Assembly (NCBI RefSeq): GCF_036663835.1
Contig: NZ_JAXOJT010000001.1
Span: 1,798,001 to 1,862,000, forward strand
Length of the DNA: 64,000 nt
Direction of reading: 5' to 3'
Origin: Sphingomonas sp. LT1P40
GTDB taxonomy: Bacteria > Pseudomonadota > Alphaproteobacteria > Sphingomonadales > Sphingomonadaceae
Program-made: the position numbers and the translations under genes
Notes under the pieces: model-generated
Databases searched by the model: none
Seen by the model: the letters and a program-made list of their open reading frames with translations, nothing else
What the model was told of the DNA's origin: nothing
Shown: positions 7,244 through 27,810 of the stretch, piece by piece
Layout of the letters: each line of letters begins with the position of its first letter
Numbering within the stretch: the first letter of the stretch is position 1

Positions 7244-7573
7244 ATGGAATCATTTATTGATGAAAACGCAGTAGCCGCCCTCGCCGCGCTGGCGCATGAT
7301 CACCGCCTCGCGCTGTTCCGCCTGCTGATTCAGGCCGGACCCGATGGCATGGCGGCGGGAGTAATCGCGGAGAAGCTCGACGTCCCGGCCTCCTCGCTGT
7401 CCTTCCACCTCGCCCATCTCAATCGCGCGGGACTGGTTACGCAGACGCGGCAGGGCCGTTCGCTGATCTACGCCGCCGACTATGCCGCGATGAACCGGCT
7501 GGTCGGCTATCTCATGGAAAATTGCTGCGGCGGCGCGGACTGCACCCCACCCCCTCCCCTTTGCCGCGATTGA
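7244..7573 (+). CDS. arsR: Arsenic-responsive ArsR/SmtB repressor
   Basis: 109-residue winged-helix repressor, first gene of the ars operon. The recognition helix region reads [19 protein letters not shown] (residues 47-65). The metalloid site is not the classic helix-3 CVC: instead the C-terminus carries Cys94, Cys95 and Cys100 (ENCCGGADC), plus Cys107. This agrees with the Acidithiobacillus-type ArsR, in which As(III) is held by a vicinal pair and a third cysteine near the C-terminus. It should release the operator when arsenite binds. arsC starts 11 bases after its stop. Confidence 0.92.
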
Positions 7574-7584
7574 AGGAACATCGC

Positions 7585-8019
7585 ATGTCCACGCCCATCG
7601 ACATCGTCATCTACCACAACCCCAATTGCGGCACTTCGCGCAACACGCTGGCAATGATCCGCAACGCCGGGATCGAGCCGCATGTGGTGGAATATCTGAA
7701 GACGCCACCATCGCGCGAACTGCTCGTCCAGCTTATCCAGCGCGCGGGCATCGCGCCGCGCGACCTGTTGCGGGAAAAGGGCACGCCCTTTGCCGAACTC
7801 GGCCTTGGCGACGCATCACTTTCGGACGACGCATTGGTCGAAGCGATGATGGCGCATCCGATCCTCATCAACCGCCCGCTGGTCGTGTCCCCGCTCGGCG
7901 TGAAGCTGTGCCGACCGTCCGAAGCCGTGCTCGACTTGCTGCCAACCCCGCAACAGGCCTCCTTCGCCAAGGAAGATGGCGAACAGGTCATCGACAGCGC
8001 CGGTCAGCGCATCGCCTGA
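7585..8019 (+). CDS. arsC: Arsenate reductase, glutaredoxin-dependent type
   Basis: 144 residues, cytoplasmic. Reduces arsenate to arsenite so the pump can export it. The active-site loop is [10 protein letters not shown] with catalytic Cys15, matching the thioredoxin-fold ArsC of E. coli plasmid R773 rather than the low-molecular-weight-phosphatase type; INRPLVVS near residue 95 and the following CRPSE segment carry the family arginines. The ATG at 7585 has AAGGA 8 bases upstream, which rules out the longer in-frame start at 7522 that would overlap arsR. Its stop overlaps the arsB start (TGATG). Confidence 0.93.
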
Positions 8020-9302
8020 TGCTGGCGGCGCTTGCGATCTTCGCCGTCACGATCGCGCTCGTCATCTGGCAGCCGCGCGGTCTCGGCATCGGCTGGAGCG
8101 CGCTGGGCGGGGCGGCCGTCGCTTTGCTGGTCGGCGTCGTCTCGCTGGCGGACGTGCCGGTGGTGTGGGGCATCGTGTGGAACGCGACCGCCACCTTCGT
8201 TGCGATCATCATCGTCAGCCTGTTGCTGGACGAAGCGGGTTTTTTTGAGTGGGCGGCGCTGCATGTCGCGCGCTGGGGCGGCGGGAACGGTCGAACGCTG
8301 TTCGTCCTGATCGTGTTGCTCGGCGCGGCGGTGTCGGCGCTGTTCGCCAATGACGGCGCGGCACTGATCCTGACGCCAATCGTCATCGCGATGCTGCGCG
8401 CGCTGGGCTATGGCGATCGGGCAACGCTGGCGTTCGTCATGGCGGCGGGGTTCATCGCCGATACCGCCAGCCTGCCGCTGATCGTCTCCAACCTCGTCAA
8501 CATCGTCTCGGCCGACTTCTTCAGCATCGGTTTTGCCGACTATGCTTCAGTGATGGTGCCGGTCGATCTGGCGTCGATCGCAGCGACACTGGGCGTGCTG
8601 CTGCTGTTCTTCCGTCGCGACATTCCCGCGCGCTATGACGTCGCACAGCTTCGCGCGCCCGTCGACGCGATCCGCGATGCTGCTACCTTCAAGGCGGGCT
8701 GGATCGTCCTTGCCGCACTGCTCGCCGGCTTCTTCCTGCTCGAACCGCTGGGCGTGCCGGTCAGCGCCGTCGCGGCCGCCGGTGCCGCCCTGCTGCTCGT
8801 GATCGCCGCACGCGGCCATGTGATCGAAACGCGTAAGGTCATGCGCGGTGCGCCGTGGCAGGTCGTGATCTTCTCGCTCGGCATGTATCTGGTCGTCTAT
8901 GGGCTGCGCAACGCGGGCCTGACCGACCATCTGGCGATCTTGCTCGATGCCTCTGCGCAGGGCGGCATATGGGGTGCCGCGTTCGGCACCGGCGTCATCG
9001 CCGCCTTGCTGTCATCGGTGATGAACAACATGCCGACGGTTCTGGTCGGCGCGCTGTCGATCGAAGCCACGCAAGCCAGCGGCGCGGTCCGGGAAGCGAT
9101 GATCTACGCGAATGTCATCGGATGCGATCTCGGCCCAAAGATCACGCCGATCGGTTCGCTTGCGACGTTGCTGTGGCTCCACGTGCTCGGGCAAAAGGGC
9201 ATTCGTATCGGCTGGGGCTATTATTTCCGGGTCGGCGTGACGCTGACGGTCCCGGTGTTGCTGGTGACCCTCGCCGCGCTCGCCATCCGCCTCAGCCTTT
9301 GA
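8019..9302 (+). CDS. arsB: Arsenite efflux membrane protein
   Basis: 427 residues, close in length to E. coli ArsB (429), with about 12 hydrophobic segments. Conserved ArsB features include [20 protein letters not shown] near residue 65, [13 protein letters not shown] near 110 and the second-half equivalent [13 protein letters not shown] near 332. It exports arsenite or antimonite, driven by the proton-motive force or by an ArsA ATPase; no arsA lies in this operon. The start is the ATG at 8019, overlapping the arsC stop; the longer open frame upstream is out-of-frame readthrough inside arsC. Confidence 0.93.
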
Positions 9303-10063
9303 AACACCCGACCTCGACAGGATTCCCCTGATGCCCTTGCGCCAACTCTCCGAACCCGACCACCTGCCGGCGCTCGATCCTCGCTACGTCCTCGAACGCC
9401 CAGCACTCGGGCTCGGGGCGGGCGACCCGCCGCCGCGTATCCTGTTGCTTTACGGATCGTTGCGCGAGCGCTCTTTTTCGCGGCTCTGCGTCGAGGAAGC
9501 CGCGCGTCTGCTCCGGTCCTTCGGCGCGGAAACTCGCATCTTCGACCCTTCCACGCTGCCGCTGCCCGATCAGCATGTCGGCGACGACCACCCGGCGGTG
9601 CACGAACTGCGCGAGCTGTCGATGTGGTCGGAGGGTCACGTCTGGTGCAGCCCCGAGCGTCACGGCCAGATCACCGGCATCATGAAGCTTCAGATCGACC
9701 ATCTGCCGCTCGCCTATAAGGGGTTGCGACCCACCCAGGGCCGCACGCTCGCGGTGATGCAGGTCAGTGCCGGATCGCAAAGCTTCAACAGCGTCAACAC
9801 GCTGCGCATCCTCGGCCGCTGGATGCGCATGGTGACCATTCCCAACCAGTCGTCGGTGGCAAAAGCCTATGACGAGTTCGACGCCGCCGGACGCATGAAG
9901 TCATCCAGCTATTACGACCGCATCGTCGATGTGATGGAGGAGCTTGTCCGCTTCACCGTCCTGATGCGCCCGCACGCGGCCCAGTTGGTCGATCGCTATT
10001 CGGAACGCAAGGAACGCGACCACCCCGTCGAAAAGCCGGTCGACAGCGCTGGCCTTGCGTCCC

Positions 10064-12664
<2,601 letters not shown>

Positions 12665-12674
12665 CTTAATTCCC

Positions 12675-12754
12675 GTCATCCCGGCGAAAGCCGGGATCTT
12701 TCAAAACTAGGCGTGCGCTCGTGGCGAGAGACCCCGGCTTTCGCCGGGGCGACG
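12675..12754. repeat. Palindromic intergenic repeat between the two metH genes
   Basis: GTCATCCCGGCGAAAGCCGG on the left is mirrored by CCGGCTTTCGCCGGGGCGAC on the right, with short inner hairpins CCCGGCgaaaGCCGGG and CCCCGGCtttcGCCGGGG. It lies between the homocysteine and folate/B12 halves of MetH and could affect RNA stability or the expression ratio between them. Confidence 0.8.
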
Positions 12755-12755
12755 G

Positions 12756-13802
12756 TCATGCCGCCATGGTGAACGGTTCCAGCCCGGCCAGCCGCGTCCG
12801 CACTTCCGGCACCGCAATCGCCCGCGCCGGCAAACCCGCCACTGCGTCCGCGATCGCCTTGATATGCGCGGGCGTCGAACCACAGCATCCGCCCAGCACG
12901 TTGACCTGTCCGGCATCGGCCCATTCCTTGACCAGCCCCGCCGTCGTCACCGGCATCTCGTCATATTCGCCAAGCTCGTTAGGCAGACCGGCGTTCGGAT
13001 AAACCATGATCAGCGTGTCGCACAGCGCCGACAGCGTCTTCACATGCGGCCGCAGCTGCTCCGCCCCGAACGAGCAGTTCAGCCCGATCGTGATCGGCTT
13101 GGCATGCCGCACCGCATGCCAGAACGCCTCCACCGTGTGGCCCGACAGGTTGCGCCCGGACAGGTCGGTCAGTGTCATCGACATCATGATCGGCAAGTCG
13201 CGGCCCAGCGCCTCGCCCGCCTCGATCGCCGCCTTGATCCCGGCCTTGGCGTTCAGCGTGTCGAACACCGTCTCGATCAGGATGAAGTCCGCCCCACCCT
13301 CGACCAGCGCGTCGATCTGGTCTCGATACACGTCCTTCAGATAGTCGAACTCGATCTCGCGATAGCCCGGATCGTTGACGTCGGGCGACAGCGACAATGT
13401 CTTGTTGGTCGGCCCGATCGCGCCGGCAACAAAGCGTGGGCGGCCGTCCTTCGCGGCGAATTCATCCGCCAGCCGCCGCGCAATCTGCGCCGACGCAACG
13501 TTGATGTCCCTGACCAGATGCTCGGCGCCATAATCGGCCTGACTGATCAAGTTTGCCGAAAAGGTGTTGGTCGAAACGATGTCCGACCCGGCTTCCAGAT
13601 ATTCGCGCGTGATCGTCTCCGGCACCTCGGGCTTGGTCAGCGCGAGGATGTCGTTGTTGCCCTTCTGGTCGTGGCTCAGGCCAAGGTCGCCGGCATAGTC
13701 CGCCTCCGACAGCTTCCAGTTCTGGATCTCGGTCCCGAACGCGCCGTCGGTAATCAGGATACGCTTGGCCGCTTCGGCCAACAGCATCTCGCGAATGCTC
13801 AC
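12756..13802 (-). CDS. metH: Methionine synthase homocysteine-binding subunit (split MetH N-terminus)
   Basis: 348-residue homocysteine S-methyltransferase (TIM-barrel) domain that corresponds to the first ~350 residues of E. coli MetH. Zinc ligands are Cys243 (GLNCSFG) and Cys306/Cys307 (GGCCGST). The start is a GTG at 13802 with AGGAG 8 bases upstream; it overlaps the metF stop as GTGA. The longer open frame to 14033 lies inside metF and is not used. It must work with the product of the next gene to make methionine; the summed length (348 + 866) equals that of an intact MetH. Confidence 0.92.
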   Translation of the reverse strand: MSIREMLLAEAAKRILITDGAFGTEIQNWKLSEADYAGDLGLSHDQKGNNDILALTKPEVPETITREYLEAGSDIVSTNTFSANLISQADYGAEHLVRDINVASAQIARRLADEFAAKDGRPRFVAGAIGPTNKTLSLSPDVNDPGYREIEFDYLKDVYRDQIDALVEGGADFILIETVFDTLNAKAGIKAAIEAGEALGRDLPIMMSMTLTDLSGRNLSGHTVEAFWHAVRHAKPITIGLNCSFGAEQLRPHVKTLSALCDTLIMVYPNAGLPNELGEYDEMPVTTAGLVKEWADAGQVNVLGGCCGSTPAHIKAIADAVAGLPARAIAVPEVRTRLAGLEPFTMAA

Positions 13803-14719
13803 GCCGCCTTCTCCTGTGCGGGATTGGTGGGCCGCACCCCCAACAGGTGACAGATCGCGTAGCTCAGCTCGGCCCGGTTCAGCGTGTAGAAGTGAAACTG
13901 CCGCACCCCGCCCGCATAGAGTTTCCGGCACAATTCCGCCGCCAGCGTCGCGGACACCAGCTGCCGCGCAGCCGGTCGATCGTCCAGCCCATCGAACAGC
14001 CGTTCCATCCATGCCGGCACGTCCGTCCCACACATCGCCGACATCTTCTTGACCGCGGCAAAGCTCATCACCGGCATGATCCCCGGCACGATCTCCGCAT
14101 CGATCCCCGCACCCGCCGCCGCATCGCGGAAGCGGAAAAACGTATCCGGCTCGAAAAAGAACTGCGTGATCGCGCGGTTCGCACCGGCGTCGATCTTGCG
14201 CTTCAAATTGTCCAGATCATGCGCGGCATCGGGCGAATCCGGATGACATTCGGGATAGGCCGCCACCGAAATCTCAAACGGGTGCAGGCGGCGCAACCCC
14301 GCCACCAGATCGGCGGCATTGGCATAGCCGCCAACAGGCGACTGGAACTTCGCCCCCGCCACCGGCGGATCGCCGCGCAGCGCCACGATATGCCGCACGC
14401 CCGCCGCCCAATATTCCTCCGCAACCGCGTCGATTTCCTCGCGCGTCGCCTCGACACAGGTCAGATGCGCCGCCGCCGCAATCGGGGTCTCGCGCGCGAT
14501 CCGCGCCACCGTGTTGTGCGTCCGCTCGCGCGTCGTCCCGCCCGCACCATAGGTCACCGACACGAACCGCGGGTTCAGCGGAGACAGCGTCTGGACCGAT
14601 TCCCACAACGTCTCTTCCATCTTTTCGGTCTTGGGCGGGAAGAATTCGAACGACAGGTCGATATCGCCCGCGACGTCCGCGAACAGCGGCGGAGCCAGCG
14701 GGTCCACTCGATTACTCAT
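13799..14719 (-). CDS. metF: 5,10-methylenetetrahydrofolate reductase
   Basis: 306 residues. FAD-dependent reduction of methylene-THF to methyl-THF, the methyl donor for the MetH pair encoded next. Recognisable segments are LSFEFFPPKTEKMEETLW near residue 22, VSVTYGAGGTTRERT near 54 and the flavin-binding ITQFFFEPDTFFRF near 185. The start codon overlaps the stop of the upstream ArsR-methyltransferase gene (ATGA), and its own stop overlaps the GTG of the homocysteine-domain gene, so the four genes are translationally linked. Confidence 0.94.
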   Translation of the reverse strand: MSNRVDPLAPPLFADVAGDIDLSFEFFPPKTEKMEETLWESVQTLSPLNPRFVSVTYGAGGTTRERTHNTVARIARETPIAAAAHLTCVEATREEIDAVAEEYWAAGVRHIVALRGDPPVAGAKFQSPVGGYANAADLVAGLRRLHPFEISVAAYPECHPDSPDAAHDLDNLKRKIDAGANRAITQFFFEPDTFFRFRDAAAGAGIDAEIVPGIMPVMSFAAVKKMSAMCGTDVPAWMERLFDGLDDRPAARQLVSATLAAELCRKLYAGGVRQFHFYTLNRAELSYAICHLLGVRPTNPAQEKAA

Positions 14720-15675
14720 GCTGCCTTCACCTCACCCAAAGTCTCGCCGGCCTTGCGCGCCAGCCATAATTTCACGGTCAATTCGCCACCCTTCAGCGTC
14801 TCGGTGCGTACCGGTGCGAGCCCTGCGGCCTCGAACCAGCCCAGCATCTGCTCATCCGAAAAGCCCAGCCGCACATGCCCCTCACGCAGCCGCAATTCCT
14901 CCCGGTCGTGCGGCGCGAAGTCCGCGATCAGCAGCCGCCCGCCGTCACCCAGCACGCGTCCGGCTTCGCGGATCGCCGCCCCCGGCTGCTGCGCGAAGTG
15001 CAGCACGTGATGCAGGATCGCCGCGTCCGCCTCACCGTCCGCCATCGGCAGCGCGTAGAGGTCCGCCTGCCGCAGCTCGGCATTGCCCAGCCCGCGCTCC
15101 GCCAGCTTGGCCCGTGCCAGCCGCAGCATTTCCGAAGACCGGTCGATGCCCAAAGCGCGTTCGGCGCGCGGCGCGAACAGTTCCAGCATCCGCCCGGTCC
15201 CGGTGCCGATATCGATCAGCCGATCAATCGGCACATCCCCCAGCGCGGACGCCATCGCCGCCTCGACCTGTTCCTCGGCAACGTGCAGCGAACGGATCGC
15301 GTCCCATTCGCCAGCATGGCCCTCGAACCATTCCGCCGCCGCCGCCGCGCGATCCGCACGTACCGCCGCCAGCCGCGCGGTATCGGCGACGGTCCAGTGA
15401 TCCGCCTCCTGCCCGCCCCATGCGTCCAGCGCCGCCAGCACCGGCTTCACCCGCCCGGCCTCGCCAAGCGCCACGAACACCCAGCTGCCCTCCTTGCGCC
15501 GCTCGGCCAGGCCGGCATCGCACAGGATCTTCACATGGCGCGACACGCGCGGCTGACTCTGCCCCAGCACTTGCGCCAGTTCGCCGACCGACAGCTCCAT
15601 CGTTCGCAGCAACGCAAGGATACGCAGCCGGGTCGAGTCCGCCAAAGCACGGAAGGTTTCGAGCGCGATCTTCAT
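14716..15675 (-). CDS. ArsR-family regulator fused to a SAM-dependent methyltransferase domain
   Basis: 319 residues, two domains. Residues ~1-85 are an ArsR winged helix (LGQSQPRVSRHVKILCDAG as recognition region). Residues ~125-310 are a class I methyltransferase fold with SAM motif I DIGTGTG (155-161) and motif II-like ALGIDRSSEML. There are no vicinal cysteines, so metal sensing is unlikely. It heads the metF-metH operon with ATGA overlap, and a perfect 22-bp palindrome lies 10 bases before its ATG. I infer a transcription factor that reads SAM or S-adenosylhomocysteine through the methyltransferase fold and controls methionine synthesis. The SahR regulator of Proteobacteria is an ArsR protein with such a role; orthology is untested. 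Confidence 0.85.
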   Translation of the reverse strand: MKIALETFRALADSTRLRILALLRTMELSVGELAQVLGQSQPRVSRHVKILCDAGLAERRKEGSWVFVALGEAGRVKPVLAALDAWGGQEADHWTVADTARLAAVRADRAAAAAEWFEGHAGEWDAIRSLHVAEEQVEAAMASALGDVPIDRLIDIGTGTGRMLELFAPRAERALGIDRSSEMLRLARAKLAERGLGNAELRQADLYALPMADGEADAAILHHVLHFAQQPGAAIREAGRVLGDGGRLLIADFAPHDREELRLREGHVRLGFSDEQMLGWFEAAGLAPVRTETLKGGELTVKLWLARKAGETLGEVKAA

Positions 15676-15685
15676 CTCGCTTATA

Positions 15686-15707
15686 GATATAAAGATATCT
15701 TTATATC
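15686..15707. promoter_or_regulatory. Perfect 22-bp palindrome, probable operator of the methionine operon
   Basis: The half-site GATATAAAGAT (15686-15696) is followed directly by its exact reverse complement (15697-15707). This AT-only-cored dyad stands out in a GC-rich genome. It begins 10 bases upstream of the ATG of the ArsR-methyltransferase gene, where a bound repressor would block the promoter or the start of transcription. Autoregulation is inferred. Confidence 0.8.
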
Positions 15708-15759
15708 ACGTCAACGCGAGTGTGATGGCGGCATAATGACTTAACTTTGAACCTACCCC

Positions 15760-15838
15760 GTCACCCCGGGCTTGACCCGGGGTCCCGCTAATGGCGACCG
15801 GTCGAAGAAGCGGGACCCCGGGTCAAGCCCGGGGTGAC
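15760..15838. repeat. Perfect 30-bp inverted repeat, intergenic palindromic element
   Basis: 15760-15789 and 15809-15838 are exact reverse complements around a ~19-base loop; the arms start GTCACCCCGGGCTTGACCCG. A second, less perfect copy is at 27734-27810. It lies between the methionine operon promoter and the glycosyltransferase stop. Confidence 0.9.
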
Positions 15839-15898
15839 GAGAATCAGTAATGTCATCGCGCTATGAACGATACAGCCTCGACGCCCGCCCTCACCCAA

Positions 15899-15924
15899 CC
15901 CTCTCCCGCGAAAGCGGGAGGGGG
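15899..15924. repeat. Short GC-rich hairpin CCTCTCCCGC/GCGGGAGGGG
   Basis: Hairpin with a GAAA-type loop just downstream (minus strand) of the glycosyltransferase stop. It could act as a transcript end, although no clear T-run follows. Similar CTCCCC hairpins recur at 41140 and 55179. Confidence 0.5.
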
Positions 15925-27733: not shown

Positions 27734-27810
27734 GTCACCCCGGGCTTGACCCGGAGTCCCGCTTCTTGGCCGGGCGAGCTAGCCGGACCCCGGGTCCATC
27801 CCGGGGTGAG
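27734..27810. repeat. Second copy of the GTCACCCCGGG palindromic element
   Basis: The left arm GTCACCCCGGGCTTGACCCG matches the first 20 bases of the arm at 15760; the right arm (GGACCCCGGGTCCATCCCGG) is degenerate. It lies between two convergent genes and may double as a transcription barrier. Confidence 0.8.

Follow-up and report, generated by a model that had tools for sequence, protein, structure and literature searches.

A probable SahR repressor with a palindromic operator and a predicted three-promoter methionine-cycle regulon in Sphingomonas sp. LT1P40

Introduction

The SahR of Proteobacteria was reportedly described by Novichkov et al. in 2014.

By its published description, SahR is a regulator of the ArsR family with a 20-bp palindrome and a core regulon of sahR, ahcY, metH, metH2, metF and metK, all of which recur in the genome studied here. 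The core is given for Alphaproteobacteria with ahcY and metK included, regulons have already been predicted in seven of seven Sphingomonadales genomes, metE is named as a target in some genomes, and in one case SahR is accompanied by a SAM-alpha riboswitch (PMC4239095). In Ensifer aridi, the account of a sahR mutant describes de-repressed sahR and sites before ahcY, metH, bhmT and metK (PMC8877191). The SamR of Xanthomonadales is presented as a distant SahR homologue (about 30% identity) that likewise controls split metH, and it differs from SahR in its 24-bp motif and in a regulon that lacks ahcY (PMC4239095).

A similar operon has been published under another name. Li et al. (2023) describe a 5649-bp arsR^M-metF-HMT-metH operon with a 960-bp arsR^M gene in Brevundimonas sp. 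M20, in which, as at the present locus, a fusion protein of about 320 aa is encoded in the same order with metF and a split metH, and a palindrome precedes the start codon (PMC10190100). According to the same account, ArsR^M bound its own promoter in EMSA and, unlike SahR, it was published as an arsenite methyltransferase, a function for which ArsM enzymes carry conserved arsenite-binding cysteines (PMC10190100). The word "SahR" occurs zero times in the main text of that paper.

Here, a 64,000-nucleotide stretch of the Sphingomonas sp. LT1P40 genome (the window) was analysed, and its methionine operon was compared with the rest of the genome and with related genomes.

Results

The genes sahR, metF, metH1 and metH2 form a minus-strand operon in the window by Pfam and NCBIfam matches (Table 1). 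MetH is split between two genes, as it is in Sphingomonas koreensis (PMC7857596), and the metH1 product aligns with positions 2-354 of full-length MetH models. The starts of metH1 (GTG at 13802) and metH2 (ATG at 12664, in an ORF that opens at 12679) are our choices. The four genes had been described in the initial annotation as overlapping or tightly spaced. This holds for the first three, with 4-bp overlaps between sahR and metF (14716-14719) and, given the GTG start, between metF and metH1, but the last gap is looser, at about 90 bp, and contains an inverted-repeat pair. Repetitive extragenic inverted repeats are found in the window at 15759-15839, 12679-12749 and 27738-27806; the first is a perfect 31-bp pair directly upstream of the sahR promoter, and the second lies between metH1 and metH2.

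Table 1. Positions of the met operon genes, protein domains and predicted regulatory elements in the window
Feature	Coordinates	Strand	Basis and remarks
sahR	14716..15675	-	ArsR winged helix + class I methyltransferase fold, 319 aa; Pfam, NCBIfam
DNA-binding part of SahR, residues 5-75	15451..15663	-	recognition segment QSQPRVSRH invariant or nearly so
Methyltransferase-fold ligand domain of SahR, residues 152-254	14914..15222	-	motif I DIGTGTGR 155-162, D178, H222, D252
metF, methylenetetrahydrofolate reductase	13799..14719	-	PF02219 and NF006950 above cut-off
metH1, homocysteine-binding part of split MetH	12756..13802	-	PF02574
metH2, folate-, B12-binding and reactivation parts of split MetH	10064..12664	-	PF00809, PF02607, PF02310, PF02965; TIGR02082 above cut-off
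SahR operator (predicted), perfect 22-bp palindrome GATATAAAGATATCTTTATATC	15686..15707	.	sequence, shuffle test, conservation
Putative -35 element TTGACG of the sahR promoter	15709..15714	-	inferred from conservation
Putative -10 element TATATC within the operator (spacing to -35, 17 nt)	15686..15691	-	sequence and spacing

The proposal that an ArsR winged helix is joined to a methyltransferase fold with the motif DIGTGTG was confirmed. The sahR product matches the ArsR helix-turn-helix model PF01022 at residues 13-58 (48.2 bits, cut-off 22) and the class I methyltransferase model PF08241 at residues 154-250 (77.3 bits, cut-off 21.2), with DIGTGTGR at 155-162, and it passes the general ArsR model NF033788 (82.4 bits, cut-off 55). 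Among 44 diverse SahR rows, D155, G157, T158, G159, T160, G161 and R162 of motif I are invariant, as are D178, D217, H222, L225, D252, H256, R262, H267 and L270-G271-F272, and the recognition segment is mostly invariant. This conservation fits a retained SAM/SAH pocket and would look the same in a sensor and in an enzyme. When sequences of solved structures were searched, no chain spanning both domains appeared among the 60 of 79 matches listed, which are separate methyltransferases and separate ArsR/SmtB regulators only. A metal-sensing ArsR/SmtB reading was dropped because the helix-turn-helix domain has no conserved thiol pair; C52 is kept in 41 of 110 orthologues and has no partner cysteine.

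Upstream of sahR, an exact 22-bp palindrome had been noticed 10 bases before the first gene, and it was found just there, separated from the ATG by bases 15676-15685. It is thus a site of the kind required of SahR, the 20-bp palindromic operator. The palindrome has one match in the window at up to three mismatches, against 0.00 expected from 100 shuffles, and genome-wide reversed-pattern controls gave zero, so it is not a chance match. The 20-bp core occurs at two places in the genome at up to three mismatches (reversed control, 0).

A check of whether the palindrome precedes metF, metH, ahcY or metK in sphingomonad genomes had been suggested. Across the 3.47-Mb genome, ATATAA-N8-TTATAT is found exactly at three places, namely before the sahR-metF-metH operon, before ahcY (contig C1, 73 bp before the ORF) and before metK (contig C2, with an altered centre), whereas the reversed control gave none; one mismatch adds a single further place, C1:791765. 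The core SahR genes ahcY, metH, metF and metK therefore have predicted operators in their own genome with exactly three full pattern matches. Judged from these sites, the predicted regulon is three promoters, those of sahR-metF-metH1-metH2, ahcY and metK.

The conservation of the system was evaluated in 149 genomes of the family. SahR orthologues (E <= 1e-20) were detected in 132 of them, and operator sites with up to two mismatches in 115, whereas the reversed-pattern control gave none in all 149. Sites are present in 114 of the 132 genomes with SahR versus one of the 17 without (P = 2.7e-11, Fisher test, uncorrected for kinship). The lone exception, G025, has one site before ahcY and another at base 2 of a contig; given that position, its sahR gene may be lost to a gap at the contig end. 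Among the 18 SahR genomes with no site at up to two mismatches, the 15 in the fetched set mostly have a degenerate site by sahR. The other 16 family genomes with no SahR match (e.g., G008, G017, G026, G060, G069) have no sites either. Searches for SAH and SAM-alpha riboswitches in LT1P40 and the 17 SahR-less family genomes gave 0 of 18 for each, and the control genomes also gave none.

At the level of loci, 110 sahR loci were taken from 136 match rows (30 came with the search output and 80 were retrieved in addition; the 26 left out include split or second matches). Absence of the palindrome before orthologues had been named as the outcome that would count against the initial reading, and the opposite was found. 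In 103 of the 110 loci, 12 or more of the 16 outer positions match at a site within 300 bp, whereas 288 background windows never exceeded 11. All 98 loci in which sahR is followed by metF in the same orientation carry the palindrome, and the seven loci with no such site all lack an adjacent metF. The complete order sahR-metF-metH1-metH2 is kept in 70 of the 80 longer loci in this set. In a separate comparison, the best 80 named loci of the genome collection, 79 carry a site that matches 13 or more of 16 positions (the exception is L286). In one genus, there are two SahR-like copies per genome (L093 and L107 in G076; L095 and L106 in G144), none beside metF, and one of the four has a site.

Class-wide, a SahR match was obtained in 121 of 240 genomes, a few of them partial. 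Outside the family, 27 loci were compared; metF follows in 26 of them, and 23 carry a site within 150 bp that matches 12 or more of 16 positions. The SahR of Acetobacteraceae (L261, L270, L271, L277, L289) is 56-65% identical to the LT1P40 protein, as close as the Sphingobium ones, and on the strength of that equal identity may reflect lateral transfer. A record titled Bacillus sp. 2B10 (L272) holds a 73% identical SahR operon with operator, and it is probably a mislabelled or mixed assembly.

Sites away from sahR in relatives were drawn from the listed part of the family site scan and 15 further-checked genomes. Among those listed, they precede ahcY in 30 distinct sequences, metK in 18, and metF and metH1 once each. 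Nine other listed sites comprise six before a cobalamin riboswitch, one at a contig end and two with no assigned target; the last two (L170:2001-2020 in G043 and L198:2001-2020 in G123) are a SahR-like site common to two species of one genus, with no adjoining methionine gene.

A strict sigma-70 scan of 15600-15900 reported no promoter and no terminator, and the sahR promoter elements in Table 1 are for this reason argued from conservation. Among 92 distinct sahR upstream sequences, 52 have an exact TTGAC covering positions -9 to -5 relative to the 20-mer, 30 have a related TTG and 10 have neither. With the elements so placed, transcription of sahR would start 3-5 bases before the ATG. At ahcY, when one mismatch per box is allowed, a TTGC box is located at +20 (18 of the 30 sites listed) or at +25 (7 of 30), with GCTA 21 bases on, while 5 of 30 fit neither version; LT1P40 has the +25 version. 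For metK, 14 of the 18 sequences listed have a GCTA-like box 8 to 19 bases upstream of the operator, as does LT1P40. The placement of the operator thus appears to depend on the class of promoter: it lies between the -35 and -10 elements at sahR, abuts the -35 at ahcY and comes just after the GCTA box at metK, a pattern that goes beyond what we found published. Inside, before or just after the promoter, each of these positions would be expected to hinder RNA polymerase.

A further class of sites was observed at metE. Full-length MetE above the family cut-off was detected in 13 of 149 genomes. In 12 of these 13 a cobalamin riboswitch precedes metE, with a SahR site 26-30 nt before the riboswitch; the thirteenth, G017, has no SahR match, no site and no riboswitch at metE. 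All 12 metE genes in relatives with both SahR and full-length MetE hence have a SahR-like site, although three of the 12 sites are degenerate (13-14 of 16). The search of MetE covered 30 loci, of which 18 (13 full-length metE and 5 shorter matches) entered the riboswitch scan. In G134, a mesX-mesD operon (PF08908, PF01717) has a SahR site and a cobalamin riboswitch. In 13 of 14 cases (the 12 metE genes, mesX-mesD of G134 and a cluster in G110), the site and the TTGAC that follows it are exactly 5 nt apart. In 16 genomes, which comprise LT1P40 and others picked for metE or leftover sites and in which a limited number of candidates per genome was scored, at least 42 cobalamin riboswitches were found; a site accompanies 14 of them (matching 13 to 16 of 16 positions), and the other 28 lack one (no more than 10 of 16). 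The one found in LT1P40 has no SahR site. The layout in the examined genomes with SahR and full-length MetE is fixed, in the order operator, 5 nt, -35 TTGAC and riboswitch.

In G110 (L379), a SahR site and a cobalamin riboswitch precede a TonB receptor gene, which is followed by quinone reductase-like, glyoxalase-like and hydrolase-like genes, two short MetE-like genes and a formyl-THF deformylase-like gene, as named from our reading of their N-termini. In G043 (L172/L209), metE and a TonB receptor gene diverge with separate cobalamin riboswitches, and the SahR site is positioned for metE.

Discussion

The architecture, operator, regulon sites and conservation of SahR, and its promoter geometry as read from sequence, are shown for this genome and its relatives. 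The initial annotation had cited SahR as an analogue. The kinship stands, but mere analogy does not, because the same architecture, the same operon, a palindrome kept before orthologues and further sites before ahcY and metK indicate that the protein is SahR itself. No feature was found that separates the LT1P40 protein from the SahR family, the Desulfovibrio SahR being matched by description. The same evidence supports the earlier suggestion of a SAM/SAH sensor, as far as sequence can. Taken together, we are highly confident that the protein is a SahR repressor acting on the palindrome, with its methyltransferase fold serving as a SAH pocket and with sahR-metF-metH1-metH2, ahcY and metK as its regulon.

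We infer the ligand, the direction of control and the dimer. A SahR dimer would bind the palindrome ATATAAAG-N4-CTTTATAT, and at low SAH it would sit on its operators and block RNA polymerase. As methylation proceeds, SAH would accumulate and bind the C-terminal methyltransferase fold, whereupon SahR would leave the DNA. AhcY (SAH hydrolase), MetF, the split MetH, MetK and SahR itself would then be made, and the derepressed enzymes would clear SAH and remake methionine and SAM.

By homology, SAH is the most likely ligand. Methyltransferase folds with an intact motif I bind both SAM and SAH in general, and a repressor of the same type could instead sense SAM itself or the ratio of SAM to SAH, SAM then acting as co-repressor in the manner of MetJ and as proposed for SamR. 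The presence of metK in the regulon would suit such a sensor, and the effector of SamR itself is left open between SAM and SAH in its description (PMC4239095). However, operators precede ahcY, the gene for the enzyme that clears SAH, both in LT1P40 and in its relatives, whereas SamR, which is thought to sense SAM, is described with no ahcY in its regulon (PMC4239095); the Desulfovibrio SahR, moreover, responds to SAH as cited in PMC4239095 and PMC8877191. Sensing of SAM is thus unlikely.

The position of the operator upstream of -35 at ahcY and metE, where it abuts that element, is one that activators also use, and it counts against the reading of SahR as a repressor. SahR could accordingly activate ahcY and metE from the upstream site while repressing sahR and metK. 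The spacing at ahcY, however, comes in two versions 5 bp, or half a helical turn, apart (18 and 7 of the 30 sequences listed), which steric blocking would tolerate better than an activating contact, and SahR is described as a repressor. We therefore regard a mixed role of this kind as rather improbable, and hindrance of RNA polymerase as favoured.

An arsenic reading was prompted by the adjacent ars cluster and by the Brevundimonas report (PMC10190100). Under this reading, the protein would be ArsR^M, which is claimed to act both as a regulator and as an arsenite methyltransferase and to link arsenic with methionine metabolism. The published account reports a raised arsenite MIC in Escherichia coli and a kit-measured activity of 0.87 U/mg, but the kit measures SAH formation, and the part of the paper at hand contains no identification of the product (PMC10190100). 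The arsenic contacts proposed there, Q224 and Y228 (PMC10190100), correspond, as mapped by motif only, to H223 and F227 here, at positions that vary. In the window, arsR, arsC, arsB and an arsH-like flavin reductase gene (7244-10110, plus strand) head towards the met operon and run into its 3' end, where the last ars ORF (to 10110) and metH2 (to 10064) have a 47-bp tail-to-tail overlap. Against this reading, the only cysteine of the LT1P40 protein is C52, within its DNA-binding part. Of 110 orthologues, 33 lack cysteine altogether, and only columns 52 and 95 have it in at least 10%. On this pattern, the family-wide cysteines would give the arsenite activity no support. Arsenite methyltransferase models score 48.6 bits (cut-off 263 for NF008823, and 263 or more for the NCBIfam models), among 38 genomes with both ArsH and SahR the two genes are no more than 10 kb apart in just two (LT1P40 and G146), 94 of 132 SahR genomes have no ArsH match, and the operator sites precede methionine-cycle genes. 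The protein does not fit an ArsM-type arsenite methyltransferase, as the conserved arsenite-binding cysteines are absent and the score is far below the NF008823 cut-off. The arsenic reading is consequently very unlikely, and given the cysteine-poor orthologues, the low scores and the lack of a conserved ArsH link, the ars neighbourhood is probably incidental. From gene order and size, the ArsR^M of Brevundimonas is probably SahR under another name.

The initial annotation allowed that the enzyme fold may still methylate something. A catalytically active domain that uses a different acceptor, with regulation coupled to turnover, is very unlikely. The SAM motif and nearby polar residues (H222, H226, D252, H256, R262, H267) are kept, in keeping with an enzyme, but they would equally be kept for ligand binding, and no acceptor is suggested by the neighbours, which in 70 of the 80 longer loci all belong to the methionine cycle.

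Returning to SahR as a SAH-responsive repressor, the paired sites at metE suggest a role in the choice of methionine synthase. We think it somewhat more probable than the contrary that sphingomonad SahR and the cobalamin riboswitch form a two-input gate that decides which methionine synthase is made, presuming that each works as in its own family. Accumulating SAH would open both the promoter for split MetH, which depends on B12, and that of the B12-independent synthase (MetE, or MesX-MesD in one genome), while the message of the latter would be completed only under B12 scarcity. The SAM-I/AdoCbl tandem riboswitch of Bacillus clausii metE is described as a comparable arrangement, in which methylation status and B12 control the B12-independent methionine synthase, but both of its sensors are RNA (PMC9481103), whereas the first sensor in the relatives studied here would be a DNA-bound repressor. 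No published description of the SahR-cobalamin riboswitch pairing was found in the literature covered, which was part of the whole.

SahR with its operator is of an already described kind. What is added here is the completeness of the regulon, the promoter placements, the riboswitch pairing and the likely double naming; of these, the promoter geometries and the pairing appear to extend the SahR picture given in PMC4239095. The palindrome and fusion gene of the window are thereby settled as SahR and its operator, with a complete three-promoter regulon that spans the SAM cycle from SAH through homocysteine and methionine to SAM. One protein family has likely been named twice in print, as the SAH sensor SahR and as the claimed arsenite methylase ArsR^M. 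In the relatives with metE, the SahR site and the cobalamin riboswitch would be a natural case of one gene controlled in series by a protein sensor and an RNA sensor.
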